DNA from: Thermoplasmata archaeon
GTDB taxonomy: Archaea > Thermoplasmatota > Thermoplasmata > Lutacidiplasmatales > UBA184
Assembly: GCA_027314165.1 (NCBI GenBank)
Contig: DAHVCH010000009.1
Span: 32,681-96,680 of the forward strand
Reading direction: 5' to 3'
Length of the DNA stretch: 64,000 bases
Part shown: piece after piece, positions 14,413-56,349 of the stretch
Position numbering within the stretch: position 1 is the first letter of the stretch
Layout of the letters: every line of letters starts with the position of its first letter
Program-made: the position numbers and the translations under genes
Notes under the pieces: model-generated
What the model was told of the DNA's origin: nothing
Database searches by the model: none
What the model saw: the letters and a program-made list of their open reading frames with translations, nothing else

Positions 14413-17400
14413 ATGGCCGACGCCGAAGAAACGGTCGTGGGGGGACAGCCAGGGTGGTGGCGCCGCCACGGCCTCGCGGTTGCGATCCTCCTCCTCGCCG
14501 CGTCGATCTCGTTCATCATCCGGGTCATCTACGCCTACCAGCTCATCGACCTCTGCAACATCGCCTACTGTTACGCAGGCGGCTCGGACTCGTTCTACCA
14601 CTCGCGGGTGATGGAGTGGATCATCAGCACGCACACGAACCTCATCCACGACCCCGAGCTCAACTACCCTATCGGGTCGGTCAACCCCCGTGAGCCGCTC
14701 TTCGACTGGATGAACGCCATCCTGGGGATCATCTTCGCCCCGTTCTTCGGCGGGAACCCGGTCCGCGCGGGCATGTGGGTCCTCGAGATGCAGCCCCCGT
14801 TCTGGGCGGCGGTCGGCGTCTTCCCGGTCTACCTCATCGGGAAGGAGGTGAGCTCCCGGCGGATGGGGCTCATGGCGGCGCTCCTCTACCCCCTCGTCGT
14901 CGGCAACATCCAGAGCACGGTCGCGACGTACGCCAACTACCTGCCGTTCTACACCTTCTTCGTCCTGCTTTCGGCCTACTGCTACCTGCACACCGTGCGG
15001 TTGTCCGGCACCCGTCGCTGGGTCGAATCCTACCGCTCGCCCAGGGCCATCTGGGAGGGCGTGAAGCAGTTCGCACGGACCGAGGAGCCATCGGTGAAGT
15101 GGGCCGTGATGGCCGGGGTCTCGCTCGGGGCGACGATGTTCGCCTGGCAGGGGTACACCTACGTCATCACGATCATCATGGTCTTCCTCGTGATCACGCT
15201 CCTGGTCGAGCGCATCCGAAAGCACGACTCCTTCGGCGCCTACCTGGTGACGCTGCTGTCCGGGACCCTGGGGTTCCTGATGGCCATGCCCTACTACTGG
15301 GTCCAGGGGGAGTTCGGTTACTGGTTCACCGTCCCTCTCCTGCTCTTCTTCGGGGGCTTGCTCGCGCTCCTCCCGTTCGTCCTGCTGCGCGATAGCCCGT
15401 GGGTCATCAGCGTCCCCGCGCTCGTGGGGAGCGTTGGCGCGGCGGCCGGGGCGCTCTACCTGTACAATCCCTCGTACTTCGACGCCGTGGTGACGGGCCA
15501 GGGCTACTTCGTCAAGAACCTCATCTTCTCCACCGTCGCCGAGGCCCAGGCGCCGAGCTTCGACGCGCTCATCGTGAGCTACGGGATCGGAACGTTCCTG
15601 CTCACCTTCGTCGGGCTTGCGCTCTTCGTCGCCTACCTCTTCGTCTACCGCTTCCGGCGGGAACACATCTTCATGGTCGTCCTCGGCCTCATCGGGATCT
15701 ACCTCCCGATCTCGGCGGCGAAGTTCTTCCTACTGGGCTCCCCGGTCTTCGTCCTCCTCCCGGCCGAGGCCCTCCTGATCGGGCTCGACCGGATCGGCGC
15801 CTACCCCCAGCTCCGCCACAACCTCTCCTCGCTCTCGGAGCGGGGTGGGGGTCGGTTCCTCGCCCTGCGCCGGTCCATCAAGCTCCGCCACATGGTCCTG
15901 GGCCTCATCGTCGTCCTCGTCGTCATGCCCAACGTCTCCTGGGCGGTGGACGCGGGAATCCCCTACAACGTCCAGGGGCAGTACAGCCAGCAGATCTACG
16001 CCTCCCTCCCCACCGTCCTGCAGACCAGCCCCTCCAACGCCTCGTCGTTCTACCTCGGCATCGCCGGGATCCAGACCGACACCCCCCAGCAGTACGATGA
16101 GAGCGGGTACAGCTGGCTATCCACGCAGGACACGTTCGAAGCGCCCGAACATCGGCCGGCGTTCATCAGTTGGTGGGACTACGGGTTCCAGGCCATCGAC
16201 CAGGGGCAGCACCCCAGCGTCGCCGACAACTTCCAGGAGGGCATCGACCCCGCAGGGAACTTCCTGCTCGCCCAGAACGAGTCGCTCGCCATCGCCTACA
16301 TGGCCGCGGACCTCCTCGAGGCCCAGCACGTCGCACCGGCGAGCGCGATCCTGAACCCGTCCGGCTGCTCGACCGGGACCCTCTACGGGGGGCTGCGGAA
16401 CGACGGCGTCAACACGACCCAGCTCTACAGCTACCTGGTCAACACGTCCCAGGACGTGAAGCTCGTGGAGAACAACCCGGGCTTGTACGGACCGAAGGAC
16501 AACAGCAACCTGGACTCGCTGAACGCGATGTACGACGCGGTGAGCTACCTCATCGCCTCCTCGATGTCGGAGAACAAGGTCGTCCAGGTCTACCAGGACG
16601 TCCAGGCCTGCACCGGCTGGTCCATCCGCTACGCGATGGCCGACACCCGTCTGTTCCCCACGAGCGGTTCGAACACGGGGATCTACTACGCTCCGGTTGA
16701 CCTGACCGACGGGATCATCGGCCCCGGCGGGATCCCTACGTCCTACTTCACCGTCACCGTGACCGGGAGCGACGGCCAGACCTACCCGCTGGGCCAGGTC
16801 CCCCAGGGCGTGCAGACGGTCTCTTCGAACATCAACTATCTCCCGGCCTTCTACAACTCGATGATCTACAAGATCGAGGCGGGGTACAACGGCAGCCAGG
16901 TGGGCGCCGGCAACGGTATCCCCGGCCTCACGCTCTCCAACAGCAACCCCGAGCCCGGCTGGATGATGCAGCACTTCGTGATGGGGTACCGGACGGCCTA
17001 CTACTGTCCCTACACGAACTACCAGGCCCACCCCAACTGCTTCTCCGCGGTGAACCTGAACGTCGCGCAGACCCACCAGACGCAGAGCCAGGGGACCTCG
17101 GACCTCTCGCCGTCGACGTACTTCTCCAACGGCGGGGAGACGATCATGGAGTACTACGCCGGGGCGAGCATCCAGGGCAAGGTCACCATGCCCAACGGGG
17201 CCCCCGTCCCGGGGATCCGCATGACGGTCGACGACTCCTGGGGCTACCCGCACATGACGACGGTGACGAACAGCCATGGGGACTTCACGCTCCTGGCGCC
17301 TCCCGGCAACGACTCGATCTACGCGAGCTACGGGACGGTGACCCCGCTCACCCAGGTCGGGGTGACCCAGGTCGACCAGTACAACCTCACGGTCCGGCCC

Positions 17401-20400
17401 GACCAGGGCTTCGGGTACAACCCTGCCCCGATCACCCCGCACATCATCCTGAAGCCGGGGACGATCACCGGGCAGGTCTACTGGAACCGCGCGAATCAGA
17501 CCACCTTCCAGGCCAGCGACATCGCGATCCCTGGCGCCACGGTGACCGTGGACAACGGGGTCGGATCCTCCGCCACGACCACGAGCGACGCGAGCGGGAC
17601 CTACTCCCTTTCCGGTCTCGCCCCCGGGGCCTACAACGTTTCGGTGACGGTGGGGACGTTCACCTCGGGAGAGGCGCCCGTCTCGCTGGTGAGCGGCGCG
17701 ACGGCCACGAACAACATCGCCCTCCACCTCACCGACGTTCACGGCCTGGTGCGGAACCAGACGGGAAGCCCGGTCACGGGCGCGCTGGTCACCATCACCG
17801 GCACGAACGGGTACTACTCGACGGACTCCACCCTCCCCGGAGGCAACTACAGCTTCACGCCCCTCCCGCCGGGGAACTACTCGATCCAGGCCTCGGACGC
17901 CTACGGCCGCTCCTCCGTCCCGGCCCATGTGGGCGTCGCCACGTTCCAGACCAACCTCACGGTCAACTTCACCCTCAGCACGCCCGTCGAGGTCAACCTC
18001 CTCCCGCTGCTCAACGGGAACCCGGTGCCCAACCTCCCGGTGCGCTTCTCGGCGCTCGGCGGCGGGGCCAACGGGAGCTACCTCTTCTTCACGGGGAGGG
18101 GCGGATGGGTCCACGCGACGGTCTCGATCGGCAACTGGTCGGTCTACGCGCTGGGGGTCGTCAACGGCACCTACGTCGCGGGTATCGGCGACTTCCATCT
18201 GACCGCGAGCAACGCCGAGGTGTTCTCCGGCGGCTCCGTGTTGGCCCTCTCGCCGGCGGACGCCCTCTCCGGCCACACGTACGACCCTACCGCGGGCACC
18301 GCCCCGCAGAGCGGCGTCACCGTGACCCTCCAAGACAAGAACGGGGCCCAGCTCACCACCACGACGAACTCGACGGGCTCCTACCGGGTCTGGTTGCCGG
18401 ACGGCACCTACGCGGTCACGGCGAACGTCTCGAGGGCAGGGCAGTCTGGCGCCGCGATGGCCGGGGTGGTCGTGAACGGTCCGACGACCCTCGACCTGAC
18501 GATGGCCACCTCGGTCGCCTACCGTGCCCAGGTGGGCTACTTCTCGCCCCAGCTGGGCACCTTCGAGCCGCTCACCGGTGTCGGGGTGAACCTCACCCTG
18601 GACCAGGCCGCCGCGACGGTCCAGCTGACCTCCGGGCCGGAGGGGAACCTCTCCTTCATCCTCCCCCAGACGACGAGCTCCTTCACGCTCACCACCTCCG
18701 TCTACGGGTTCTCCCCCTACCATCTGGGTCCGGTTCCGGAGTCCACGCTCACCTCGACCTCGAGGGTCGTGCTGAACATCTCTCAGGTCCCCGTCCAGGT
18801 GCTGGTGAGGAACGCCTCGGGCGCGAGCGCCACGCCCCAGGTGAACTTCACCGGGCTCTCGGCCTCCACGCAGTCGGTGAACGTGACCGGGACGAACGTC
18901 ACCCTCGAGCTCTACCCGGGAGAGTACTCGGTGGGCGCGTGGGCCCCCATCGCGGGGGGAGGAGTGCTTCGACCCTTCACGAACTCGACGCTCTCCGTCC
19001 CGATCGGTTCCTCCGGGGTGACCCTTGCCCTCTCGGTCGTCCCGTCGCTCCAGTATCGCGTGAACTCCACCACCTATGCCGTCTCGCTCTCGGGGACGAA
19101 GGCGGAGCTCTCGGGCGCGCTGGGGACCCTCACGTTCAACGGAACGACGCTCTTGAGAGGGTTCGACGCCCCCTCGGGGCAGTACAACCTCTGGCTCACC
19201 GGGCACAACGGTAGCCAGCCCGTCTCGTTCTTCGACCCGGTGTCGCTCTTCGCGAACGGGACGGCCTCTCCCTCGAAGGTGACCCTGCTCCCCGCCGGTG
19301 TGCTGGACTTCTCCATGCGCGCTCCGTTCGGCCGCGTGGTGAACACCTCGCTCGCGGTGGGGATCACCAACGGCAACGGTACCTCCTCCTCGTTCACGAC
19401 CTACGCCTCGGGGAACGCGACGCTCACGCTCCCGCGTGGAGGCTACACGATGTCCGTGAACACCACGGCCCTCCTCGACGTGAACGGGGTCACCCAGTAC
19501 TGGGCCATCTCCACCAACCCGCGCGCCGACACGTGCGCCGTGGCTCCGCTGGGCTCCTCCAGCTGCGTCCTGACGGTGAACGTGACCCAGGCGCTGGACG
19601 TGGTCGCGGCCTCGCTCCAGTTGAACGGGGCGTCGATCTCCGGCGGAACGGGCACCGTCACCGCCATTCCCTTCAACGGGGCGGCGACCGAGGTCTTCCC
19701 GGTCTCCGGGAGCAGCGTGTCGCTCTCCCTCCTCCCCGGACGATACACCCTCTACACGGTGCTCTCCGCGACCTCCGCCCCCATGGTCAACGTGACCACC
19801 CTCACGATCCCCTACTCCGCCTCGCCCATCCCGGTCGTCCTGGAGCTCCAGCCCGGATGGGTGCAGACCCTCGCGATCTCGGGCCCCTCGGGCCTTCCGA
19901 CCCCGAGCTCGTTCAACCTCTCGTTCTCCCACCCCGGAGGCGGGCTCATGGTCAACCTCACGAATGTGAGCTTCGGGTCCTACGCGCTCGCGCTTCCCTC
20001 GGGGAGCTACCATGTCCAGGTCAGCTCCCTCGTCGCGCCCTGGGGGCCCCGGGTCGACCTGCTGGGAACGACCAACCTCACGGTGGCGGCGGCGAACTCG
20101 TACGTGCCCTTCCCGTTGCAGCCTCAGTGGCAGCGGGCGGTCACCATGACGCTCGTGGGCAACCCGAACCCGATCACGGGCAACGGCGGGACGGTCACCT
20201 ACCAGATCGTCGTGAACAACACCGGGAACGCGCCCCTCTCGCTCACCGCGACCGGGGCACCCTCCACCTGGCCGATCCGGTTCTCCCCCGGCAACTTCAC
20301 GCTGGGACCGGCCGCCAACAACCGTTCCCGGGTGATCGAGGTGCAGCTCACGGTTCCGCTCTCCGAGCCTGCGACGATCCCCACGATCGTCTTCCAGCTC

Positions 20401-20994
20401 ACCCAGAGCACCGGCGGGAGCGCGCTCGCGTCCGTGAACGCCCCGTTGACGCTCATCAAGACCTACCAGTTCACGATGGGCGCCACGACCTCCTTCGACC
20501 AGATCCGGGCCGGGGCCATCCTCCTCGGCTTCCACATGACCGCGACCGGGAACTCCGGGGAACAGGTGGCGCTCAGCGTCGGCAACGGGGCAGAGCTCTC
20601 CCAGGACGGATGGTCCTACGTCATCGCGGCCGTCTCGACGGGACAACCGGTCTACGGCACGGAGAGCATCACGCCCGGCGCCCAGCCCTTCCAGGGATCG
20701 GTCGAGCTGTTCCCCCACAGCCCGGCTCCGATCATCCCGGGCAGCGTCCAGGTGCTCGGAGTGGACTCGGCCCACCCCCAGGTCACGGGGATCGCCTACC
20801 TCACCGTCGTCGGGCACGCCACGATCGCGCTCAACGCGACCCCGGTGGTCTCGGGCCCCTCCGTCGGCGGGTCCCCGCCGCCGGACTACCAGACCTGGCT
20901 CTTCCCGCTGCTCACCGTGCTGCCGGCGATCGTCATCGTGGCGGTCGCGGGGTCCTGGCGCTGGTGGAAGACCCGGAGGTGGACCCGGCGATGA
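14413..20994 (+). CDS. aglB: Dolichyl-phosphooligosaccharide-protein glycotransferase (AglB/STT3) with a giant C-terminal ectodomain, 2193 aa
   Basis: Multi-TM N-terminal half with GGSDSFYHSRVMEW and catalytic WWDYG (16171-16185; SWWDYGFQAIDQGQHPSVADN). After about 17150 come repeated carboxypeptidase-regulatory-like/Ig-like beta modules (IQGKVTMPNGAPVPGIRMTV..., ITGQVYWNR...IPGATVTVDNG...) and a final TM WLFPLLTVLPAIVIVAVAGSWRWWKTRR. Confidence 0.93.
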   Translation: MADAEETVVGGQPGWWRRHGLAVAILLLAASISFIIRVIYAYQLIDLCNIAYCYAGGSDSFYHSRVMEWIISTHTNLIHDPELNYPIGSVNPREPLFDWMNAILGIIFAPFFGGNPVRAGMWVLEMQPPFWAAVGVFPVYLIGKEVSSRRMGLMAALLYPLVVGNIQSTVATYANYLPFYTFFVLLSAYCYLHTVRLSGTRRWVESYRSPRAIWEGVKQFARTEEPSVKWAVMAGVSLGATMFAWQGYTYVITIIMVFLVITLLVERIRKHDSFGAYLVTLLSGTLGFLMAMPYYWVQGEFGYWFTVPLLLFFGGLLALLPFVLLRDSPWVISVPALVGSVGAAAGALYLYNPSYFDAVVTGQGYFVKNLIFSTVAEAQAPSFDALIVSYGIGTFLLTFVGLALFVAYLFVYRFRREHIFMVVLGLIGIYLPISAAKFFLLGSPVFVLLPAEALLIGLDRIGAYPQLRHNLSSLSERGGGRFLALRRSIKLRHMVLGLIVVLVVMPNVSWAVDAGIPYNVQGQYSQQIYASLPTVLQTSPSNASSFYLGIAGIQTDTPQQYDESGYSWLSTQDTFEAPEHRPAFISWWDYGFQAIDQGQHPSVADNFQEGIDPAGNFLLAQNESLAIAYMAADLLEAQHVAPASAILNPSGCSTGTLYGGLRNDGVNTTQLYSYLVNTSQDVKLVENNPGLYGPKDNSNLDSLNAMYDAVSYLIASSMSENKVVQVYQDVQACTGWSIRYAMADTRLFPTSGSNTGIYYAPVDLTDGIIGPGGIPTSYFTVTVTGSDGQTYPLGQVPQGVQTVSSNINYLPAFYNSMIYKIEAGYNGSQVGAGNGIPGLTLSNSNPEPGWMMQHFVMGYRTAYYCPYTNYQAHPNCFSAVNLNVAQTHQTQSQGTSDLSPSTYFSNGGETIMEYYAGASIQGKVTMPNGAPVPGIRMTVDDSWGYPHMTTVTNSHGDFTLLAPPGNDSIYASYGTVTPLTQVGVTQVDQYNLTVRPDQGFGYNPAPITPHIILKPGTITGQVYWNRANQTTFQASDIAIPGATVTVDNGVGSSATTTSDASGTYSLSGLAPGAYNVSVTVGTFTSGEAPVSLVSGATATNNIALHLTDVHGLVRNQTGSPVTGALVTITGTNGYYSTDSTLPGGNYSFTPLPPGNYSIQASDAYGRSSVPAHVGVATFQTNLTVNFTLSTPVEVNLLPLLNGNPVPNLPVRFSALGGGANGSYLFFTGRGGWVHATVSIGNWSVYALGVVNGTYVAGIGDFHLTASNAEVFSGGSVLALSPADALSGHTYDPTAGTAPQSGVTVTLQDKNGAQLTTTTNSTGSYRVWLPDGTYAVTANVSRAGQSGAAMAGVVVNGPTTLDLTMATSVAYRAQVGYFSPQLGTFEPLTGVGVNLTLDQAAATVQLTSGPEGNLSFILPQTTSSFTLTTSVYGFSPYHLGPVPESTLTSTSRVVLNISQVPVQVLVRNASGASATPQVNFTGLSASTQSVNVTGTNVTLELYPGEYSVGAWAPIAGGGVLRPFTNSTLSVPIGSSGVTLALSVVPSLQYRVNSTTYAVSLSGTKAELSGALGTLTFNGTTLLRGFDAPSGQYNLWLTGHNGSQPVSFFDPVSLFANGTASPSKVTLLPAGVLDFSMRAPFGRVVNTSLAVGITNGNGTSSSFTTYASGNATLTLPRGGYTMSVNTTALLDVNGVTQYWAISTNPRADTCAVAPLGSSSCVLTVNVTQALDVVAASLQLNGASISGGTGTVTAIPFNGAATEVFPVSGSSVSLSLLPGRYTLYTVLSATSAPMVNVTTLTIPYSASPIPVVLELQPGWVQTLAISGPSGLPTPSSFNLSFSHPGGGLMVNLTNVSFGSYALALPSGSYHVQVSSLVAPWGPRVDLLGTTNLTVAAANSYVPFPLQPQWQRAVTMTLVGNPNPITGNGGTVTYQIVVNNTGNAPLSLTATGAPSTWPIRFSPGNFTLGPAANNRSRVIEVQLTVPLSEPATIPTIVFQLTQSTGGSALASVNAPLTLIKTYQFTMGATTSFDQIRAGAILLGFHMTATGNSGEQVALSVGNGAELSQDGWSYVIAAVSTGQPVYGTESITPGAQPFQGSVELFPHSPAPIIPGSVQVLGVDSAHPQVTGIAYLTVVGHATIALNATPVVSGPSVGGSPPPDYQTWLFPLLTVLPAIVIVAVAGSWRWWKTRRWTRR

Positions 20995-25004: not shown

Positions 25005-26234
25005 GTGCATCCTTCCGACGCGATACGCGGCCGTCGTTCCCAGCTGCTGGCTGGCCGCCGGGTGGTCATCGGCATCTCGGGCTCCATCGCTGCCATCGAG
25101 ACCCCGCGCATCGTCCGGGAGCTGCTCCGGCACGGCGCCGAGGTGCAGGCGGTGATGACCAAGGACGCGCTCGGGATCATCACTTCCGAAGCCCTTCGCT
25201 TTGCGACGGGACGGGCTCCCATCACGGAGCTCACGGGCGACGTCGAGCACGTCCGCAACCTGGGCCCGGGGCCCGGTCGGGCCGACCTGCTCCTGCTCGC
25301 TCCCGCCACCGCCAACACCCTCTCGAAGGTGGCCCAGGGCATCGACGACACCCCGGTGACCACGTTCGCCTCGATCGCTCTCGGCGGTGGGGTCCCCGTG
25401 CTGGTCGCTCCGGCGATGCACGAGGACATGACCCGGAACCCCGCCGTGGCGCAGAACCTGCGACGGCTGGAGGAGATGGGTGTCGCCTTCATCCCCCCGA
25501 TCGTCGAGGAGGGTGAGGCGAAGCTCGCCACGCCCGAGGTCATCGCCGCCCATGTCCTGCACCGGCTGGCACGAGGGGCCTGGAGCGGGCGTAAGGTCGT
25601 CATCATCGGGGGCTCCACCTCGGAACCTCTGGACGACGTCCGCTCGCTCACCAACGAGGGAAGCGGGCTCCTCGCCGTGAACCTCGCCGCACAGGCGTTC
25701 TTCCGGGGAGCTTCGGTGGAGGCTTGGCTGGGTGCCCTCCGCGTCCCGGTCCCCCTCTTCCTTTCCCCGCGCCGCTTCACGACCCTGGAGGACCTCCGGG
25801 GGTTGGTGAAGAAGGAGGCGAAGACCCTTCGCGAGGCCGATGCGGTCCTCGTCCCGGCCGCGCTGTCGGACTTCACGCTGAAGAAGCAGGAGGGGAAGAT
25901 CCCCTCCCTCCAGGAGAAGCTCGTTCTCGAGCTCGCCAAGGCCGAGAAGCTGCTTCCGGAGCTTCGCCACCTGGCCAAGGCCCCGACGCTCCTCATCGGG
26001 TTCAAGCTCGAGGCCGGGCTCTCGCCAAGGGCCCTTCAGGAGAGGGCCTGGGTCTACCTCCAGTCGACCGGGTGCGATGCTCTCGTGGCGAACGAGAGGA
26101 AGAGCATGGGAGGGCCCGACTCGGAGGTCTATCTTGTGCGCAGGGAGGGCAAGATCCACCCTTACCACGGAACCAAGGACGTGGTCGCGGGCCGGCTCCT
26201 GGACGACGTCGGACAGGACCTCGCCCCGAGATAG
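25005..26234 (+). CDS. coaBC: Bifunctional phosphopantothenoylcysteine decarboxylase/phosphopantothenate-cysteine ligase
   Basis: VVIGISGSIAAIETPRIVRELLRHGAEVQAVMTKDAL, LLLLAPATANTLSKVAQGIDDTPVTTFASIAL, VLVAPAMHEDMTRNPAV, GGSTSEPLDDVRSLTN, LPAALSDFT-type segment, GFKLEAG. Confidence 0.94.
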   Translation: MHPSDAIRGRRSQLLAGRRVVIGISGSIAAIETPRIVRELLRHGAEVQAVMTKDALGIITSEALRFATGRAPITELTGDVEHVRNLGPGPGRADLLLLAPATANTLSKVAQGIDDTPVTTFASIALGGGVPVLVAPAMHEDMTRNPAVAQNLRRLEEMGVAFIPPIVEEGEAKLATPEVIAAHVLHRLARGAWSGRKVVIIGGSTSEPLDDVRSLTNEGSGLLAVNLAAQAFFRGASVEAWLGALRVPVPLFLSPRRFTTLEDLRGLVKKEAKTLREADAVLVPAALSDFTLKKQEGKIPSLQEKLVLELAKAEKLLPELRHLAKAPTLLIGFKLEAGLSPRALQERAWVYLQSTGCDALVANERKSMGGPDSEVYLVRREGKIHPYHGTKDVVAGRLLDDVGQDLAPR

Positions 26235-26382
26235 GCGAGAACGTCGGGGCCGTCCTTCGCCCCCATCCTTCGAGGGAACGGTTGAGCGCGGGACGGGTCT
26301 CTCTCGCCCCTCCCTCGGTTCGAGGTCCCCGTTCGGGCCGGAAGAAACCCCATATGGGTCCCACCCGAGCCCTGCTCTACCC

Positions 26383-29361
26383 GTGAGCGCCCTCCCTACC
26401 CATCGGCGCAGCGTCTGGCCGTTCCGCTGCGCCACGCTCCTTCTGGTGCTCTTGGCGTCCTCAGCCTTCCCCGCGTCCTCGCCGCACGGAAGTCCTCAGC
26501 CCTTCTCGTCCGTGCCCAACGACGGGGCTGGAGCCCCGGCATGGCCGTCCCTCGGGACACCCACCAACCTGACCATCGCCTCGCAGCCGCTCCTGCTCTC
26601 CTCCCAGTTCTGGGGCACGACCATCTCGGCCGAGGCCCATCTGCTGCCGGACGAGCCCGCGCTGCTCAACGCCACGCGGTCCCACGTTCTGGTCTGGCCC
26701 GGGGCGAACGCCGGCGACCGGCTGAACATGCTGAACGGATCGATGCTCACGGTGAACGGCACCACCCTCACCTGGGCGCCACCCGCCACGAACGAGACCC
26801 AGTTCATCCACCTCTGTCGGGAGCTCTCGTGCGAGGCGATCTTGCAGGTTCCCGGGGAGATCGACAACCCCTCGCTTGCGGCGCAGTTCGTCAACTACAC
26901 CGAGCGCACCTTGGGGTTCACGCCTGCCTACTGGGAGATCGGGAACGAGCCGGAGCTCTGGGTGCAGTGGCAGCGACCCTGGTCGCAGTGGAACCTCCCT
27001 CCCGAGACCGGGAGCCAGCGGATCGCTCCGCCTCAGTACGCCTGGGAGGTGCACAATTATACCACGGTCCTTCGGACCGCGGACCCGAACATCCGGATCC
27101 TCGGGCTCGCGGGCACGGGGCGGTCTCAGAACAGGTTCCCGCTGTCAGATTGGGTGAACGACACCGTGGCGGTGAACGCCGCGACCCTTGGCGGGATCGC
27201 CTTCCACGTCTATACCGCGGGCGTGTGGGGGAACGGGACGCTCGCCCAGTTCTACGCGTTCGACACGGGCCCCTACAGCGTGCCCGGCCGGGTCTCGGAC
27301 ACACGTTCGGCGATCTCGGCGGAGGTGAACGCCACGTGCACAGGCTGCCCGGACCCTCCCGTCATCCTCACCGAGCTCGGTTCCGCGCTCTCGCACTACC
27401 AGTTCGGCAACCTCAGCGAGGGGTTCGCCGGGGGGCTCTCCTTGGCCGCCAGCGAGATCGAGGGCATGGACCTGAACGTCTCGAACCTCGACGTGTTCGC
27501 TTCGGTCCTGAACACCTCGAACTCGTGGTTCGCGCTGGACGGCACGAGGAGGCCGGATGCTACGGTCTACACCGATCTTCTCTCCCACCTCGGGAGCCAG
27601 GTCTTCCCCGCCTCCCTACAGGCCGCGAACACCCCGACGAACTCCGGGTCGAACACGAGCCTCAACGCCAACCTCTACGCGGTCGCGACCGTGGAACCGA
27701 CCGACCAGGGGCGAGCGGACCTGCTCCTGGTCAACCAGAACATCTCCACCAACGTTTCGTTCGCTCCGAGCCTGCCCGGGATCGGACCCGGGATCCCTGC
27801 GGAGCTCTGGACGTGGTCCGGCGCCCCGCACTTCTCCTCGTCCAACAGTTCCTGGTGGGTCCGCGCGACGACCCCCGCTCCTGCCGCGACGTTCTTCCCG
27901 AACGGTCTCCCGGCCTCGTGGACGCTTCCCCCTCAGACCATCGCCCTCCTCGAATCCTACCCGACGGCCGCCACCCAGGTGACTTTCAACTCCACCGGGG
28001 TCCCCGCATCCACTGCCTGGTTCGTCACCGTAGATGGACGGAGCCTGAGCTCCACGGTACCGACCCTGTCGGCGCTGCTTCCGCAGGGGACCTATTCCGT
28101 TGGCGCGCCGCCGCTGAGCCTGCCCGTAGGGACCCTCTACCCGAACCCGCACGAGCGGCTCGAACCCTTCCCTCCCGAGCCTCTGGTCGTGGGGTCGACC
28201 CCCGTGCTCGCGACCGTGCCCTACGTGGACCAATGGTCGGTCGCCTGGGCCGCCTTCCCCTCGGGAATGGGCGCCGTGGTGCCCAACGTCGCTTGGGCGA
28301 ACGCGAGCGCCCCCACCACGCTGACCGCCGTGCCGATCCAAGGGTGGGTCCCCTCCTCGTGGGTGGGGAAGGGCGCCGGGAGCTACACGGGGAGCGGGCC
28401 GCAGGCGACCATCACGCCCAGGAGCTCGATCCACGAGAACGTGACCTTCGTGCCCGGGTTCAACGCCAACTTTGCGGAGACCGGCCTCCCCCCTGGGACC
28501 AACTGGAGCGTTCGCGTGGACCTCGTGAGCCAGTGGAGCACGACCTCGACCATCTCCTTCGTCGAACCCAACGGCTCCTACATCTTCCAGGTGAACTCCG
28601 TGGCCGGGTACACCGCCTCCCCCTCGAGCTCGAGCTTTGCGGTCTCGGGGGCCGCCCTTCAGGTGGACGTCCAGTTCACCCCGAACCCCACGACGTACGC
28701 CGTCAGCTGGCAGGAGACCGGCCTTCCCGGGAACACCGCATGGTCCGTGCTCGTGGACGGGACGGCGTCGTCCTCGGCGGGCCCCACACTCACCGTCGCG
28801 CTGGCGAACGGGACCCACTCGTTCACGGTCCCCTCCCTGCCGGGTTACCAACCCACGCCGAGAGGAGGGGCCCTCGTCGTCGCGGGGACACCGTTGCAGC
28901 TCGCCGTGAGCTTCTCCCCCTTCGCGCTCCCGGTCTCCTTCAACGCGAGCGGCCTCCCGGCTGGGCAGACGTGGACGATCGTGCTCGGAGGCACGTCGGT
29001 ATTGACGAGCGACACGCAGTTCCTTGTTACGGAGCCGAACGGCACGTACGCCTGGAGCGTCGTCGCTCCGACCGGTTACACCGCCAATCCTTCGTCGGGC
29101 ACACTGTGGGTGCACGGCGGCGCCGTGTTCGTCACCGTCACGTTCGTATCGGGGGGCTCCTCGTCGGCGCCCGGTGGGTTCGGGAGCGCTCTGTTCTGGA
29201 CGCTCCTGGTCGTGGGCCTGGTCGCGGCCGTGGCGATCGTGCTGGTCCTCGTGCTCAGCCACCGCCGAGGGTCGGGCCCCGGGCGCAGGGGGGAGGAAGA
29301 GTGGCGGACGCCGCCTCGCGAGACTTCCCCCGGCCCACCCCCGCCGCGCGGGCCCACGTGA
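26383..29361 (+). CDS. Secreted clan GH-A-like glycoside hydrolase with three GLPxGTxWSV repeats and a C-terminal TM anchor
   Basis: GTG at 26383; signal CATLLLVLLASSAFPASS. Candidate acid/base Glu in AYWEIGNEPELW (codon 26947-26949) and nucleophile Glu in PPVILTELGSALS (27373-27375). Repeats FAETGLPPGTNWSVRVDL, WQETGLPGNTAWSVLVDG, FNASGLPAGQTWTIVLGG. TM LFWTLLVVGLVAAVAIVLVLVLSHRR. Confidence 0.75.
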   Translation: MSALPTHRRSVWPFRCATLLLVLLASSAFPASSPHGSPQPFSSVPNDGAGAPAWPSLGTPTNLTIASQPLLLSSQFWGTTISAEAHLLPDEPALLNATRSHVLVWPGANAGDRLNMLNGSMLTVNGTTLTWAPPATNETQFIHLCRELSCEAILQVPGEIDNPSLAAQFVNYTERTLGFTPAYWEIGNEPELWVQWQRPWSQWNLPPETGSQRIAPPQYAWEVHNYTTVLRTADPNIRILGLAGTGRSQNRFPLSDWVNDTVAVNAATLGGIAFHVYTAGVWGNGTLAQFYAFDTGPYSVPGRVSDTRSAISAEVNATCTGCPDPPVILTELGSALSHYQFGNLSEGFAGGLSLAASEIEGMDLNVSNLDVFASVLNTSNSWFALDGTRRPDATVYTDLLSHLGSQVFPASLQAANTPTNSGSNTSLNANLYAVATVEPTDQGRADLLLVNQNISTNVSFAPSLPGIGPGIPAELWTWSGAPHFSSSNSSWWVRATTPAPAATFFPNGLPASWTLPPQTIALLESYPTAATQVTFNSTGVPASTAWFVTVDGRSLSSTVPTLSALLPQGTYSVGAPPLSLPVGTLYPNPHERLEPFPPEPLVVGSTPVLATVPYVDQWSVAWAAFPSGMGAVVPNVAWANASAPTTLTAVPIQGWVPSSWVGKGAGSYTGSGPQATITPRSSIHENVTFVPGFNANFAETGLPPGTNWSVRVDLVSQWSTTSTISFVEPNGSYIFQVNSVAGYTASPSSSSFAVSGAALQVDVQFTPNPTTYAVSWQETGLPGNTAWSVLVDGTASSSAGPTLTVALANGTHSFTVPSLPGYQPTPRGGALVVAGTPLQLAVSFSPFALPVSFNASGLPAGQTWTIVLGGTSVLTSDTQFLVTEPNGTYAWSVVAPTGYTANPSSGTLWVHGGAVFVTVTFVSGGSSSAPGGFGSALFWTLLVVGLVAAVAIVLVLVLSHRRGSGPGRRGEEEWRTPPRETSPGPPPPRGPT

Positions 29362-29362
29362 C

Positions 29363-30001
29363 CTACGGGTGGACGACGCCCAGGATCCCGTTGATGATGA
29401 ACTGGACCGCGACCGCTCCCAGGAGCAGCCCCATGACCCGGATGATCGCGGTGATGCCCACTCGGCCAAGGTAGCGGAAGATCCCCCGCCCGAAGTGGAG
29501 GATCAGGAAGGACGCCACGGTCACCGCGATGACCGCCAGGAAGAGCCCGAAGACCTCGAAGAGGTTGTCCTTGGCGTTGCCCACGTAGACCATCACCGTG
29601 GCGATGGCGCCCGGGCCGGCGAGCAGCGGGATGCCGAGCGGAGCGATGGCCAGTTCGTCGCGCTTGCGGATCGCCTCCTCCCGGTCGGCGGGAGCGATCT
29701 TCTTTCCCACGTCACCGTGGAGCATGTCGTAGGCGATCAGGAAGAGTAGGATCCCACCGGAGATCTCCATCGCGTAGAGGGTGAATCCGAAGGCGGTGAA
29801 CAGGTACTTCCCCGCGACCAAGAAGACGACCAGCGTCACCCCGGTGGTTGCGACCGCCCGGCGCAGGATGACCCGCTTGTCCGCCTCTTCGAACCCCTCG
29901 GTGAGGGCGACAAAGAACGGCAGCGTCCCGATGGGGTCCACGGTCGCGAACAGGCTCGCCGTGGCCGCGAGGACGAAGGCCAGCTCTTCGATCACGTTCA
30001 A
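29363..30001 (-). CDS. MarC-family integral membrane protein
   Basis: LNVIEELAFVLAATASLFATVDPIGTLPFFVALTEGF...GILLFLIAYDMLHG...LAIAPLGIPLLAGPGAIATVMVY...IIRVMGLLLGAVAVQFIINGI. TTG start at 30001 overlaps the upstream stop (GTG at 29995 is the alternative). Confidence 0.92.
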   Translation of the reverse strand: MNVIEELAFVLAATASLFATVDPIGTLPFFVALTEGFEEADKRVILRRAVATTGVTLVVFLVAGKYLFTAFGFTLYAMEISGGILLFLIAYDMLHGDVGKKIAPADREEAIRKRDELAIAPLGIPLLAGPGAIATVMVYVGNAKDNLFEVFGLFLAVIAVTVASFLILHFGRGIFRYLGRVGITAIIRVMGLLLGAVAVQFIINGILGVVHP

Positions 30002-30993
30002 CCGGAAATCGGGGGGGCCGAGGGGTTGGGGTCGCCCCACTGGATGCCGCAGTTCGCGCACACGCGGCTGGAGGGGAGCGGGTTGCCGCACATCGGGCAC
30101 TCCCGGACCGACTGGAGCGAGACGGACCCGAAGGCGGAGATCTTCATCGGAGAGCTCGAACGTGTCGGGGATCCGGAAGGGGTCCCGCTCCCACGGCCCG
30201 ACGGCGGTGGCGGGGGAGGGATCGCCATCGGCGGAGAGCTCACGGAGGGAGCGGAGTTCGTAGGCGACGGCGGTGGAGGAGCGGGGATCGAGAAGAGGTC
30301 CGGTCCGCGGCTCGAGCTCGAGGACCCCGTCGTCAAAGCCGAGGGCGGGGGTGGAGGTGGTGGAGGGGGCGGCGGCGGGGCGGCGGGAGGTGGCGCGGCC
30401 ACGGGGGACGGGGGAGGGGCGGGCTGGACGGGAGCCGTCGCGGACGCGGACGTGGACGTGGACCTCGCGCTCTTGGTCTCGAATGGAGCGGACACGGCCG
30501 GGGCAGGAGGAGCGGTCGCGGGAGGAACGGGTGCCGCCGAAGAGGCTCCTGTGTCGGCGGCGGCCACTTCCGAAGACGGCGGTGTCGGCGTTGCCCTGGA
30601 GGCCCTCAGTCCCTCCGAGGGAGACATAGGCTCGGCGGTCGCGCTCAGCCGGGCATACTTTTCATCGTCAATGGTCAGCGCCGGGAGCAGACCCAGGGGC
30701 AGCAGGTTCCGGGTCGGCCGCCCCGAGTCGGACGGCCCCGGCGACGGGGGAGCCGGCGGAGCCGCGGGGGGAGAGGGTGCGGGCTCGGGCGGTGGTGCCG
30801 TCGGCGTCTCTCCTCCCTGGCTTCCCCTTCTCTTCCTGGGGGCGCGCGGCTCCCGACCGGGGATGAGCGTCGTGGGGACGGGCCCGTTCCAAGTGACGAG
30901 ACAGGTCCGGCAGACCCGGTCCCGCTTGAGCTCCCCGCCACACCAGGGGCAGTAGGTGTAGATGTCGGCGAGCCTCGAGTCGGTGGAGACCAC
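29998..30993 (-). CDS. Proline-rich soluble protein with N- and C-terminal zinc ribbons
   Basis: YTYCPWCGGELKRDRVCRTCLVTWNGP near the N-terminus and RECPMCGNPLPSSRVCANCGIQWGDPNPSAPP at the C-terminus, separated by long Pro/Ala/Ser linkers. Confidence 0.82.
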   Translation of the reverse strand: MVSTDSRLADIYTYCPWCGGELKRDRVCRTCLVTWNGPVPTTLIPGREPRAPRKRRGSQGGETPTAPPPEPAPSPPAAPPAPPSPGPSDSGRPTRNLLPLGLLPALTIDDEKYARLSATAEPMSPSEGLRASRATPTPPSSEVAAADTGASSAAPVPPATAPPAPAVSAPFETKSARSTSTSASATAPVQPAPPPSPVAAPPPAAPPPPPPPPPPPPSALTTGSSSSSRGPDLFSIPAPPPPSPTNSAPSVSSPPMAIPPPPPPSGRGSGTPSGSPTRSSSPMKISAFGSVSLQSVRECPMCGNPLPSSRVCANCGIQWGDPNPSAPPISG

Positions 30994-31059: not shown

Positions 31060-34000
31060 CTAGCCGCCTTCGTCCGCCCAGCTCATGTTGCACCGCGGGC
31101 AGAACCCGTTCTCGAGGGGGCCGCTGCAAATGAAGCACCGTCCAGGGCCGCTCGTGAGCGGCTCCGCGGCGGAGGGGGCGGGGGGCGGGCTCGGGGCGGG
31201 AGCGGCGGAGGCCGTCGACTCGGCGGGCGCGGCCTGCGGGAGCACCTCCTTCGGCGCGGGCGGAGGCGAGGGCTCGGGCGGCGGGACGGGCGGGGCTTCG
31301 GCGCGTTCTACGACCGAGGGAGATGGCGGAGCGGGAGTCCTGGGGACCTCGTGAACCATGGGTGGCTCGGAGACCGGCGCAGGCGCCGGCACCTGCTCGG
31401 GAGGCGGAGCCTGAGGGGCCTGAGCGAACGAGGAGGTCGGGGGAAGGGGTTCCGCTCCCTGGTCTCGGTCCACGAACGTGGCGGGCTCGGAGGAAGCGGG
31501 CTCCCAGGAGACCTGGCAGTTCGGGCACACCCTCCCCGGGGCGAGGAGCGTGCCGCACTGCGGACAGTGCGTGAGCTCCGTAGGGGCCGCGAGAGGGGCG
31601 GTCGGCGGTGGTGGGGCTGCGCCGCTCATTCCCGGGCGCCCGATGGTCGTGTTCAGCTCCGGATGGGAGGGTTCCCAGCGGACCTGGCAGACGGGGCACT
31701 CGCTCTCGGGCGTGAGCGGACCGGAGCACTGGGGGCAGTGGGTCAGCGCTTCCAGCTGCGAGGGCGCCGGTCCGACGATAGGTGAGGGGGCAGGGGCTGG
31801 GGAGGGTACCGCCTCGGCCACCGCCGACGGGAGCACGGTTTCGAGAGGAGCCTCTGGCGACACGTACTGGCAGGTGGGGCAGGGGATCCCTCCTCCGAGG
31901 AGACCCGAGCCGCAACGAGGACAGAGATCGGGGCCCATCTCCTGAGCGCTGACCGGGGGAACGGTGGGCTCGACGCTTGGGGTAAGCGGGGCGCCGGCGC
32001 CCGACACGCGTGTCCCGGGCGGGAGCGCCGCCGGGGCGTCGGGAAGCACTCCCCCCAGGTCGTCGGGTGACTGGTCGGAGGCCCCCGCGGGCACGGGCGG
32101 GGCCATCAGGTCGGGGTTGACCGACGCTCCCGTGGCCAGGAGGACCGGCGCGGGGGCGAAGGCCTCCATGTCGGGTTGGGGCTCGCCCAGGGGTCGGCGC
32201 CGACGCATGGCCAAGAGTGCGATGACGGCGGCCACGACGACGGCGACCAACACCAGGAGCAGCCACCAGGGGATCCCCACGATGCTGGTGGAGAACAGGG
32301 AGCCGTTGGGGGAGGCCGTCGCGACCGTGGCGTTGTAGAACCCGGTTCCCTTGCCGCCGGAGGAGTCGGTCACGATGACCTGCACCTCGTAGCCTCCGGC
32401 CGCGGTGAAGTTGTGGTTGACCGTCGCTGAGGAACCCGATGCGGAGGTCGTGACCGAGGGCGAGCCGTCGCCGAACGTCCAGAGCAGTTTGTAGGTGCCG
32501 TCGCCGCCGCTCAACGAGGCGGTCAGCGCCATGTTCACGGGGGCTGGAGAGTCGAAGTTGTTGCCGGTGACGACCACCGCGATCGCGGGGAACACCGTGA
32601 GGTTGAGGGAACCGGTACCGTACCCCCCCACCGTGTCGTTGGCGGTGGCCCGGACGTCAAAGGTCCCCGCGACCGCGAACGCATGCAGGAGCTGGTTCGC
32701 CCCGGCCTGCGGAGACGTCCCGCTGCCGAAGGTCCACCAGATGGTGGGGAAGTAGCTCTGGGACCCTCCGCTCACGGTGGCGGAGAAGATGACGTTCGTG
32801 TTCACGTCGACACCGTTCGCCACGTTGATCCCCGAGGCCGTGGCCGTCAGGGCCACAGTGATCGGAGGATAGACGAGGACGCTCGTCGGGGCGGAGGCGG
32901 CCTTCGCCCCCGTGCTGTCGGTCACCGTCAGGACGACCGAGTAGGTCCCGGAGGAGGAGAACGTGTGCGTGGCCACCGCCGGGCTCGTCGTCACCACCAC
33001 GGCCGGCGTGCCATCTCCGAAGCTGAAGGAGAAGGAGGTGTAGGTTCCCGAACCTCCGATCGCGGAGCCGTCGAAGCTGACGATCTCCCCCACGTCCGTG
33101 GTGGAGGGGGTCGCGGTCACCGAGGAGGTGAAGATCCCCGCGAAGGGTGAGACCGACACGCTGACCTGCGCCGTGCCCGAGCGGCCGGAGCCGGAGGTGA
33201 CCGTGACGGCGGCAGAGTAGGTCCCCGCCGTGGTGTAGGTATGTTGATCGGACCCTGTCGCCGTGTTGGCATTCGTCCCATCGCCGAAGGTCCAGGCGTA
33301 GGCGTATCCCCCGGTGCCTCCGGTCGCCGATGCACTGAAGGAGACGGGCAGACCCGCAACGGGTGAGGAGGGGCTGAAGGTGAGCGTGACCACGAGCTGG
33401 CAGGAAGATCCGCACCCGGTGGGAGGGTTCACCACCTCGGTGAACGTCTTCGAGGCCGCGTGCCCGGCGGCGTCCGTCACCGTGAGGCTCACGGAATAGC
33501 TGCTGGCCGACGTGTAGTTGTGGTGCGCCCAGGCCGTGGTCCCCGATCCGCCGTCCCCGAACTTCCAGGCGTAGGCGTACGGGGTGACGCCTCCCGCCGC
33601 CGCCGAGGAGAAGGTCACCATCGTCGTGGTGTTGGAGGGATTGGGCGAGCCGGTGGCGCTCAGAATGGAGAGCGCGGCGACCACCGTCACGGGAACCGTC
33701 GTGGTGACCGAGAATCCTAGACTGTCGTTGACCCACACCTGGGCCGTGTACGTCCCGACCGAGGCGTAGACGTGGGTCGCGGAGGCCCCGTTGATCGTGG
33801 CACTTCCGTCGCCCGCGATCCACTGGTAGGTGTAGCTCGGGGTGCCCCCGGTGGCCGAGGCGTTGAGGAAGACGGTCTGGCCCACCTCGGGGCTGGAGGG
33901 GAACTTGGTCGCGGTCACCGTCATCGCGGTGTCGACCGTGACGTTCGTGAACGCGGACCGGACCACCGCAGGGCTCGCCGAGTCGGTCACGCTCACCATC

Positions 34001-36303
34001 ATCATGTACGTCCCGGCCGCGGTCGGCGTGCAGACGTCGGTCGCTCCCGTGGGGGCGGCACATCCGAAGGTCCCCGACGGGGTGGGCGTCCAGCCGTAGA
34101 CGTACGGGGTCGTGCCTCCGGTCGGGGTCGCCGTGAAGGTCACGGAATTGCCGGGCAGGATGGAAGAGCTGGACGACGTGAGCCCGACCTTCAAGGGGAG
34201 CGCGACCGAGATCGTGGCGCCCGCCCACGGAGAGGTCACGCCCAGCGAGTCGGTCACGTCCACCGCGACGACGATCGAGCCTGAGGTCGCGAAGGTGTAG
34301 GTGAACGACGACCCCGTGATCGACTGGGCCGCCCCGTTGACGGTCCACGCGTAGGCGCTGTAGCTCCCCGAACCTCCGGACGGGGTCGCGGTGAAGGTCA
34401 TGCTCTGGTTGACGTCGAGGCTTCCCGAGGTCGGGGAGACGGCGACCAGGAGACGGGGGTTCACCGTGACCGTGCCCGCGGCCGCGGTGACGATCTCGCC
34501 GATCGTGTCGGTGATCTGGACCGAGGCGCTGTACGTCCCCGGATTCGTGTAGTTCACCAGGGGGCTCTGGGTGGTCGTCGGGCAGGACGGGCTGCAAGCC
34601 CCTCCGAAGTTCCAGCTGTACGTGTAGGGCGACGCGCCGGCCCCCGGCGTCGCGGTGAACTGGACGCCTTGCCAAAGGTCCACCGTCGCGGGCGAGGCGG
34701 CCGCGGTCCCGTAGAGCGCGTAGAAGGCCGCGTAGTAGATCTGCGAGGCGGGGTTCCCGGCGTCCACGTAGGCCACGTCGACCCGGAACGGCGAGGGGGC
34801 GGAGGAGGTCGACATGGCGACCGAAGTGGCGGAGAGGGCCCCACCCGCCGCCACCAGCTGCGGGGCCAGGAACGTGCCCGTGGGCGAGGTGGTCCAGGTG
34901 GCTTGGACGTTCGAGTTCCCATCTACGTAGCTCACGAAGGGGGCCCCGGTGGTGGGGTTCAGGGCGATGTAGGCGCTGTGCAGCCCGGTGGTCGTCGAGG
35001 CCCCGCTCGGCCAGGCCCCGCGGACGTAGGTGGTCGCGGTGTTGTAGTAGTACGCGACATCGTAGGTGGGGGAGGTCGTGCTCCCGGTGTTCACGAGGAA
35101 GTCGATCGCGCTGTCGTTGCCGAGCGCGCCGCCGTAGGCCGTCTCCCCCTGCTGGACGATGACGGTCGCGTACGGCGTCGTGGAGGACATGGCGGCGCTG
35201 GTCACCTGGACCGCGTCGTAGGGGAGCGTGAGGAACGCGGTGAAGGAGTACCACACCCGGACGAAGTCCGTGGTGACGGCGGAGTTGGTCACCGAGTACG
35301 TGAACGAGCAGTTCTCGTTGATGTTGCTGCAGGCGAAGGAGATGGCGGGCCAGTAGAGCGCCGTCGTGCTCCGGGGCCCTTCAAAGACCGCGCCGGGGCA
35401 ACCCGTCCCGGAACAGATGGTCGTGCCGCCGGTGTAGGCGTCCACCGTGCTGACGGTCCCCGTCGGCCAGGTCGTGTAGGTGGCATAGTTCACGAAATAT
35501 CCCCAGTAGGCCACCTCGGCATACCCGCTCGTGGTCCACGCCACGGTCGGGCTCTCGATGGTGTCCATGGCGCCGTAGTTCGCCTGCCCCCACCAGTTGG
35601 CGTTCGTGCCCGACTGGGTCCAGGTGCTCCCGCCGTTGGCGGAGACCTTGAGGACGTAGCCGTCGCTGGACGCGGGGTTGACGGTGTCCGCGACACGGGT
35701 CTCCCAGACGACGGCGATCTCCGCGGTCGCCCCGCTGCCATGGACCGCTAGGCTCGGCCCCGTGTCCTGGGTGGTCGCGCCGGAGTCCAGCTGGACCGGA
35801 CTGGAGAAGCTCGCGCCGTCGCTCGAGCTGAAGGCGAAGAAGATGCTCCAGCGTCCGGAGACGTTGGCGGCCCAGGCCGTCCAGACGTAGCCCGAGGCAT
35901 CGGAGACGGTCGAGGGGTTGGTGGACCAGGCGAAGACGGGGCCCCCGTTCTGGTCCGTGGTGGTGGTCGTCGAGACCTGGATCGGGGTAGAGAAGATCCC
36001 CGCGGGGACCGATCCGAGCGCCGGACGGGTCGGCGGTGCACGGAGAACGTGCGCGGCGACACCGGGGGCGTTCGTGAGGCTCGATGCGTGGGCGTGCTGG
36101 GCTACCTGGGCCACCGTGGAGGGGCTGAGCGCCGAGATGGCGCTGGACCCCGGGGCCTGGCCGGCCGAGGGGACGTTCGCACCTACGGCCGGGCCAAGCA
36201 CCGCCGCTTGGGCTCCGGTCGAAGCCATCAGGGCGAGCGTCAGCAGAAGGAGGCCGGTTCCGGCCCGCGCCGCGAAGCGCCTCACCGAGGCGTGGTACGC
36301 CAT
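31060..36303 (-). CDS. Giant surface protein: sialidase/BNR-like N-terminus, about 9 PKD-like domains, one TM helix, cytosolic tail with four zinc ribbons
   Basis: Start MAYHASVRRFAARAGTGLLLLTLALMASTGAQA at 36303; repeated PKD motifs (YAWKFGDGG, YAWTFGDGT, FSFSFGDGT, LLWTFGDGS; GTYSxxVTVTD); TM GIPWWLLLVLVAVVVAAVIALLAMRRRR (~32200-32280); ribbons LCPRCGSGLLGGGIPCPTC, HCPQCSGPLTPESECPVCQVRW, HCPQCGTLLAPGRVCPNCQVSW, RCFICSGPLENGFCPRCNMSW. Confidence 0.88.
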   Translation of the reverse strand: MAYHASVRRFAARAGTGLLLLTLALMASTGAQAAVLGPAVGANVPSAGQAPGSSAISALSPSTVAQVAQHAHASSLTNAPGVAAHVLRAPPTRPALGSVPAGIFSTPIQVSTTTTTDQNGGPVFAWSTNPSTVSDASGYVWTAWAANVSGRWSIFFAFSSSDGASFSSPVQLDSGATTQDTGPSLAVHGSGATAEIAVVWETRVADTVNPASSDGYVLKVSANGGSTWTQSGTNANWWGQANYGAMDTIESPTVAWTTSGYAEVAYWGYFVNYATYTTWPTGTVSTVDAYTGGTTICSGTGCPGAVFEGPRSTTALYWPAISFACSNINENCSFTYSVTNSAVTTDFVRVWYSFTAFLTLPYDAVQVTSAAMSSTTPYATVIVQQGETAYGGALGNDSAIDFLVNTGSTTSPTYDVAYYYNTATTYVRGAWPSGASTTTGLHSAYIALNPTTGAPFVSYVDGNSNVQATWTTSPTGTFLAPQLVAAGGALSATSVAMSTSSAPSPFRVDVAYVDAGNPASQIYYAAFYALYGTAAASPATVDLWQGVQFTATPGAGASPYTYSWNFGGACSPSCPTTTQSPLVNYTNPGTYSASVQITDTIGEIVTAAAGTVTVNPRLLVAVSPTSGSLDVNQSMTFTATPSGGSGSYSAYAWTVNGAAQSITGSSFTYTFATSGSIVVAVDVTDSLGVTSPWAGATISVALPLKVGLTSSSSSILPGNSVTFTATPTGGTTPYVYGWTPTPSGTFGCAAPTGATDVCTPTAAGTYMMMVSVTDSASPAVVRSAFTNVTVDTAMTVTATKFPSSPEVGQTVFLNASATGGTPSYTYQWIAGDGSATINGASATHVYASVGTYTAQVWVNDSLGFSVTTTVPVTVVAALSILSATGSPNPSNTTTMVTFSSAAAGGVTPYAYAWKFGDGGSGTTAWAHHNYTSASSYSVSLTVTDAAGHAASKTFTEVVNPPTGCGSSCQLVVTLTFSPSSPVAGLPVSFSASATGGTGGYAYAWTFGDGTNANTATGSDQHTYTTAGTYSAAVTVTSGSGRSGTAQVSVSVSPFAGIFTSSVTATPSTTDVGEIVSFDGSAIGGSGTYTSFSFSFGDGTPAVVVTTSPAVATHTFSSSGTYSVVLTVTDSTGAKAASAPTSVLVYPPITVALTATASGINVANGVDVNTNVIFSATVSGGSQSYFPTIWWTFGSGTSPQAGANQLLHAFAVAGTFDVRATANDTVGGYGTGSLNLTVFPAIAVVVTGNNFDSPAPVNMALTASLSGGDGTYKLLWTFGDGSPSVTTSASGSSATVNHNFTAAGGYEVQVIVTDSSGGKGTGFYNATVATASPNGSLFSTSIVGIPWWLLLVLVAVVVAAVIALLAMRRRRPLGEPQPDMEAFAPAPVLLATGASVNPDLMAPPVPAGASDQSPDDLGGVLPDAPAALPPGTRVSGAGAPLTPSVEPTVPPVSAQEMGPDLCPRCGSGLLGGGIPCPTCQYVSPEAPLETVLPSAVAEAVPSPAPAPSPIVGPAPSQLEALTHCPQCSGPLTPESECPVCQVRWEPSHPELNTTIGRPGMSGAAPPPPTAPLAAPTELTHCPQCGTLLAPGRVCPNCQVSWEPASSEPATFVDRDQGAEPLPPTSSFAQAPQAPPPEQVPAPAPVSEPPMVHEVPRTPAPPSPSVVERAEAPPVPPPEPSPPPAPKEVLPQAAPAESTASAAPAPSPPPAPSAAEPLTSGPGRCFICSGPLENGFCPRCNMSWADEGG

Positions 36304-36462
36304 AGGATGCGTCGGCTTCGCAAGCGGCTCGAGGTATAAGTACGTGTCCCACAAGCGTCGAGGTACAGGTGTCCGTTCACCTCGCCGGTCCGCAGTTTCC
36401 CGCGCGGACGCGCAACGCCGGCCTTATACCTCCCTCCGAACTGCGGCGCGCCGGGTCCGACG

Positions 36463-56243: not shown

Positions 56244-56349
56244 GGCTCCCGGGGAGATGGGCACGGGGGTCCTGAGACCCTCGAGACCGCATCGCTCCGA
56301 CATACATGCGGGACCTCCTCAAGAGGGGGGTCCACCCCTACCTCAGCCC

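Follow-up and report, generated by a model that had tools for sequence, protein, structure and literature searches.

A 1747-residue PKD-domain surface protein of an uncultured Thermoplasmata archaeon with a constrained four-ribbon tail ending in a family-restricted C-terminal ribbon

The minus strand of the window (the whole 64,000-nucleotide stretch of DNA analyzed) encodes a very large PKD-domain protein of an uncultured Thermoplasmata archaeon, in which one transmembrane (TM) helix is followed by a proline-rich tail with four short two-knuckle cysteine modules (ribbons). The ribbons evolve more slowly than any other part of the protein, and the last of them belongs to a distinct C-terminal class found in a single archaeal family on otherwise unlike proteins. 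This constraint and this distribution are the strongest points in support of a surface protein whose inner tail would serve as a multivalent docking strip. The reading frame, 1747 aa from the ATG at 36303 to the stop at 31060, is single and uninterrupted, and its main parts outside the tail are as follows.

31060..36303, minus strand: 1747-aa surface protein with signal peptide, propeller-like domain, PKD array, TM helix, and four-ribbon tail (ORF call, Pfam, orthologs)
36334..36339, minus strand: TATA-like box TTATAC, TACTTATAC, of putative function (sequence and conservation in relatives G001 and G002)
36205..36303, minus strand: signal peptide RRFAARAGTGLLLLTLALMASTGAQA (N-terminal hydrophobic stretch read by eye)
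34669..35994, minus strand: N-terminal domain (about 440 residues) with a single clear Asp-box and a probable beta-propeller fold (low-confidence model)
32344..34668, minus strand: PKD array, eight stretches passing Pfam (Pfam)
32206..32277, minus strand: TM helix GIPWWLLLVLVAVVVAAVIALLAM, then RRRR (hydropathy 3.34; PWW conserved in all homologs)

The ATG at 36303 was preferred over an upstream TTG at 36354 because the TATA-like TACTTATAC, kept in G001 and G002, lies about 35 nt upstream of the ATG. For the N-terminal domain, no match was found in Pfam or in a PDB sequence search. Its AF2 model was of low confidence (pLDDT 41), and the top Foldseek matches of this model were nearly all beta-propellers, e.g., sialidases and PLL lectins. 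The BNR-like region of the original prediction is hinted at by these matches and by the one clear Asp-box (SANGGSTW, residue 221); the sequence searches and the model confidence did not back it. The PKD array gave highly significant matches over eight stretches (PKD_4, E = 3.5e-65, 216.5 bits against a cut-off of 27; PKD, E = 2.2e-57), and with one additional degenerate copy the predicted "about nine" domains was a fair count. Pfam PKD matches above the cut-off, an export signal read by eye, and a TM anchor recognized by hydropathy together characterize a PKD-domain surface protein.

Only one strong TM helix was present (residues 1343 to 1366), and the N-glycosylation sequons were split unevenly around it, with 15 outside and 2 in the tail. 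Because of the signal peptide, the single TM helix, the positive-inside RRRR, this sequon split, and the restriction of ribbon-type cysteine pairs to the tail, we infer a type I membrane protein with the tail inside the cell, and the layout and topology predicted earlier hold at the level of sequence. The sequons are likely to be meaningful, since a gene for an STT3-like oligosaccharyltransferase (AglB type, 2193 aa) lies in the same window (14413-20994, plus strand). After its membrane domain, this enzyme has a very long part that carries four carboxypeptidase-regulatory-like domains and a C-terminal TM helix. An archaeosortase-processed ending of the PGF-CTERM type, i.e., a short C-terminal signal with a few basic residues at its end, was rejected for the 1747-aa protein because 381 conserved residues follow its TM helix. 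These residues are 24% proline; the window has a GC content of 69%, which by itself favors proline-rich linkers. Pfam and NCBIfam scans found no kinase, cyclase, or HAMP output domain, in agreement with the earlier claim that the protein has no recognized enzymatic output. The four ribbons of the tail were located from sequence and homologs.

31870..31923, minus strand: ribbon 1, CPRCGSGLLGGGIPCPTC, CPRC..CPTC, without final W, in the genus only
31687..31737, minus strand: ribbon 2, CPQCSGPLTPESECPVC, CPQC..CPVC, then QVRW
31516..31566, minus strand: ribbon 3, CPQCGTLLAPGRVCPNC, CPQC..CPNC, then QVSW
31090..31137, minus strand: ribbon 4, of the C-terminal class, CFICSGPLENGFCPRC, CFIC..CPRC, then NMSW

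All 16 cysteines of the tail fall within these four CxxC..CxxC ribbons. Two knuckles at a zinc-ribbon-like spacing (C-x2-C-x8/10-C-x2-C) were present in all four and conserved in the homologs, and two or more ribbon motifs did not arise in any of 200,000 shuffled versions of the tail. All four modules predicted as CPxC...CxxC...W were thus found, the final W being missing from ribbon 1. The Pfam model DZR scored 23.5 bits, below its cut-off of 27.3, and a ribbon profile search returned weak matches to unrelated Cys-knuckle proteins, with rubredoxin marginal (E of 0.3 and above). By their sequence, the ribbons probably bind zinc. AF2 modeling of ribbons 2 and 3 gave local order (pLDDT 77 to 83) with a disordered linker between them, and Foldseek found no significant match to this model. 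The picture drawn from the model is of beads on a flexible string, in which ordered ribbons would alternate with disordered linkers.

All four genus genomes (own, G001, G002, and G003) have the same ORF with its four ribbons, and the three relatives match separate public deposits (JAKAAX, DAHUZP, and JAGWLG, Thermoplasmata archaeon). A sister genus in the family (G010, G015, and G020) has homologs with three ribbons, and strong homologs of the N-terminal domain were confined to these two genera among 61 relatives searched. Nonsynonymous divergence (dN) was compared between the window protein and two more distant members of the genus. It reached 0.08 and 0.13 in the ribbons, compared with 0.42 and 0.65 in the N-terminal domain, 0.35 and 0.42 in the PKD array, and 0.41 and 0.44 in the tail linkers; the ribbons are therefore the most constrained part of the protein, by about three to five times. 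Two kinds of artefact, a tail fused by misassembly from a separate ORF and ribbons lying outside the cell, had been named as what would overturn the original prediction. The genome is indeed a 96-contig draft, about 86% complete. Yet the same junction occurs in metagenome-assembled genomes of the three separate deposits and in three sister-genus genomes, and purifying selection runs through the tail, and on these grounds assembly fusion was rejected. An extracellular tail finds no support in the RRRR after the TM helix or in the position of the sequons, and either form of artefact is highly improbable.

Ribbon 4 has the signature of a separate C-terminal class, C[FM][VI]CGxPL..CPxCxMxW. Among own-family proteins, ribbons within 14 residues of the C-terminus (terminal) had F, M, L, or S after the first Cys in 40/45 cases and internal ribbons had P in 48/52, counted over rows that are not independent and include three terminal rows from spurious short ORFs. 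With a profile (A6) of the terminal ribbons, matches at E ≤ 1e-6 were found in 47 of 62 own-family genomes, in all seven genera, and in none of 238 other genomes of the archaeal class. The position of the terminal ribbon is fixed at about 5 to 10 residues from the C-terminus. The original prediction, upheld in its layout and topology and partly supported as a whole, had missed this family-wide class of ribbon on many proteins.

The proteins that carry the terminal ribbon differ widely in their other parts. Besides the window protein, the carriers in its own genome were a giant protein (C37), C16 with a TM helix and two ribbons, C10 with Kelch and PKD domains, and C11 with PKD domains; in C77 (Kelch and PKD), a related ribbon lies 29 residues short of the end of the protein. 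The own-genome giant is interrupted by a contig end at C37, and its counterpart in G001 is a 4675-aa ORF (L029:1229-15253, G001:C52) with two ribbons in its tail and a single C-terminal TM helix. The same ending is thus found on Kelch-plus-PKD, PKD-only, and giant ectodomains. At least about 60 own-genome ORFs with PKD_4 were counted among the matches listed, about three of them with a terminal ribbon ending, so the ribbon marks a subset and is not needed for PKD surface proteins generally. Most genomes of the family belong to genus g4, where only one small protein, adjoining a DUF885 gene, carries the ribbon. At this syntenic locus the protein has a membrane form in g1, g2, and g7 and lacks a TM helix and signal peptide in g4 and g6 (start M..FFRRFRR), with the terminal ribbon kept in all five genera; what stays constant is thus the ribbon, and what varies is the membrane part. 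Taken with the unlike ectodomains, this sequence distribution suggests a shared docking tag inside the cell.

L162, L163, L164, L165, L166, L169, L172, L197, L198, L200, and L201: terminal-ribbon protein directly beside the DUF885 gene, seen throughout the family

Next to the gene of the 1747-aa protein lies a gene for a smaller ribbon protein, followed by a gene for a membrane protein.

29998..30993, minus strand: proline-rich protein of 331 aa bearing a ribbon close to either end, the next gene and a candidate partner (ORF call, relatives)
30901..30951, minus strand: N-terminal ribbon of the 331-aa protein, CPWCGGELKRDRVCRTC (sequence)
30049..30099, minus strand: C-terminal ribbon of the 331-aa protein, CPMCGNPLPSSRVCANC (sequence)
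29363..29995, minus strand: membrane protein of the MarC family, with a GTG start 2 nt downstream of the stop of the two-ribbon gene (Pfam, sequence)

The two-ribbon gene adjoins the gene of the 1747-aa protein in all four genus genomes, as the MarC-family gene adjoins the two-ribbon gene. Elsewhere, a single weak match to the two-ribbon protein was found in 300 genomes of the class (G087, E = 7e-6, over the last 29 model positions only). The gene is absent from the sister genus, whose homolog of the 1747-aa protein still has ribbons, and such a partner is therefore not a general requirement. Across three genomes, near-perfect identity in the two-ribbon protein was confined to blocks (the two ribbons, PTTLIPGR, LLPLGLLPALT, and MKISxFGSVSLQSVREC) split by variable proline-rich stretches. 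In both the window and G001, an inverted repeat and a TATA-like box lie in the gap between the gene of the 1747-aa protein and the two-ribbon gene. Cotranscription of these two genes is possible but uncertain, because the two-ribbon gene may have a TATA-like box of its own. On the plus strand, the window also encodes a 1094-aa protein with one C-terminal TM helix and without a Pfam match or ribbon (26077-29361) and, at 53013-59778, an AAA_16/TPR protein and, after it, a protein of 1173 aa that matches PKD and amidase_6.

A second ribbon system was found in the genus and the sister genus, in which a PKD-TM gene is directly followed by a gene for an NQR2/RnfD-like membrane protein with two N-terminal ribbons and then by a gene for a TPR protein (HEAT-repeat in G005).

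L023:4985-12031 (G000:C5): PKD-TM, NQR2/RnfD-like, and TPR or HEAT gene set

In the genus, the PKD protein upstream of the NQR2/RnfD-like gene has tail repeats with SKEAKIARAKLAAAKAKAARAAK. Cysteines excluded, the first ribbon of the NQR2/RnfD-like protein is 55% identical to ribbons 2 and 3 of the window protein, and its second ribbon shows a weak likeness (31%) to the N-terminal ribbon of the adjacent 331-aa protein. A "Rosetta stone" pairing of receptor-type and partner-type ribbons on one chain is therefore not taken as proof, the receptor half being good and the partner half not. The earlier suggestion that the tail recruits partners with the same ribbons draws circumstantial support from the conserved adjacent two-ribbon gene and from this membrane protein with a closely similar ribbon. 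Ribbons also occur in other settings: a TadA/FlaI-like type II/IV secretion ATPase has an N-terminal zinc ribbon and a proline-rich spacer (L102:2207-4552, G000:C5:24459), and large proteins of other Thermoplasmata (L108, L109, L110, L111, and L114) have six to ten N-terminal ribbons ahead of a TM helix.

About even confidence is given to the reading that the protein acts at the surface as an adhesin or by binding a ligand and is docked to the cytosol by way of its ribbons. The outer part, a probable beta-propeller on a PKD stalk, would bind a ligand or surface in adhesion or matrix contact. In the inner tail, a flexible proline-rich chain, each of the four zinc-ribbon modules would be a docking site of its own, linking the protein to partners in the cytosol or the membrane, with the adjacent two-ribbon proline-rich protein as the first candidate. 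Ribbon 4 would be a family-specific C-terminal docking tag, common to several unlike surface proteins and to the small family-wide protein, for which a common cytosolic binder is predicted. A role in adhesion or anchoring fits no less well than a sensing receptor; the preference for it is a judgement, made because no signaling gene was found among the annotated neighbors and because the ribbon is common to very different outsides. In a signaling receptor, a ligand or a pull on the PKD stalk would rearrange the tail and recruit or release an effector, with no enzyme in the chain. The receptor-like layout, the multivalent and strongly constrained tail modules, and the adjacent possible adaptor would suit this, as would the mechanical strength of the PKD domains of polycystin-1 (PMC2862302). 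The annotated neighbors (MarC, succinyl-CoA ligase) nevertheless include no kinase, HAMP, response regulator, or nucleotide-signaling gene, and terminal-ribbon proteins have very different ectodomains or none, which makes such a receptor unlikely.

The terminal ribbon might instead be a biogenesis or localization tag, for retention, clustering, or quality control of membrane proteins, with no function in ligand response. Its fixed place near the C-terminus, its distinct sequence class, and its presence on unlike proteins are what such a tag would show, but it is also kept on the small TM-less protein of g4 and g6, and the three inner ribbons and the two-ribbon neighbor would be left unexplained; this account is rated quite unlikely. 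The closely similar ribbon on the NQR2/RnfD-like protein, a family linked to electron transfer, brings to mind a role for the ribbons in metal sensing or redox function (rubredoxin-like iron, thiol switches) in place of interaction. The spacing of the cysteines is nevertheless zinc-ribbon-like and the rubredoxin match marginal, and the ribbons are improbable in this role. Beyond the preferred reading of a docked adhesin or ligand-binding protein, a "ribbon code" inside the cells of this one Thermoplasmata family is put forward tentatively, in which the terminal ribbon would mark unlike surface proteins and the small protein for a shared cytosolic binder and the inner ribbons would choose further partners.

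The modules themselves are known, namely PKD stalks, zinc ribbons, and membrane proteins that bear cytosolic ribbons. TcaA/YvbJ-type bacterial membrane proteins have a single N-terminal cytosolic zinc ribbon, one TM helix, and an extracellular part. The window protein has these elements in common with them; its ribbons, in contrast, are C-terminal and number four, and it did not match the TcaA model. A protein from another family of the class (L112, itself a weak match to TcaA) is alike in layout, with an ectodomain of seven CARDB domains, a TM helix, and cytosolic DZR (PF12773) ribbons above the Pfam cut-off, but differs in ectodomain and ribbon class and lacks the terminal C[FM][VI]C ribbon. 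Archaeal PKD-repeat surface proteins, e.g., of Methanosarcina, share the secreted tandem beta-sandwich repeats as a surface stalk (PMC2447325), to which the window protein adds a long cytosolic ribbon tail after the TM helix. The CPxCG micro-proteins HVO_0758 and HVO_2753 of Haloferax are likewise archaeal two-knuckle zinc modules; HVO_0758 was shown to be a genuine zinc finger protein, and swarming and biofilm formation are influenced by both (PMC10716476). They are free-standing and below 70 aa, whereas the ribbons of the window protein are modules on a membrane protein. The combination of a PKD-TM protein, a family-restricted terminal ribbon, and an adjacent two-ribbon gene was not described in the literature searched, in which few subscription papers were covered.

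Little is known of how archaeal surface proteins connect with the inside of the cell. In this very large surface protein, conservation is highest at the cytosolic end, and the last module there is a recognizable tag confined to a single archaeal family. The terminal ribbon offers a short bait of 25 residues for a cytosolic partner and a handle for listing the surface proteins that share the tag. If true, the ribbon code would be an archaeal inside-outside scaffold built of zinc ribbons instead of enzymatic domains.
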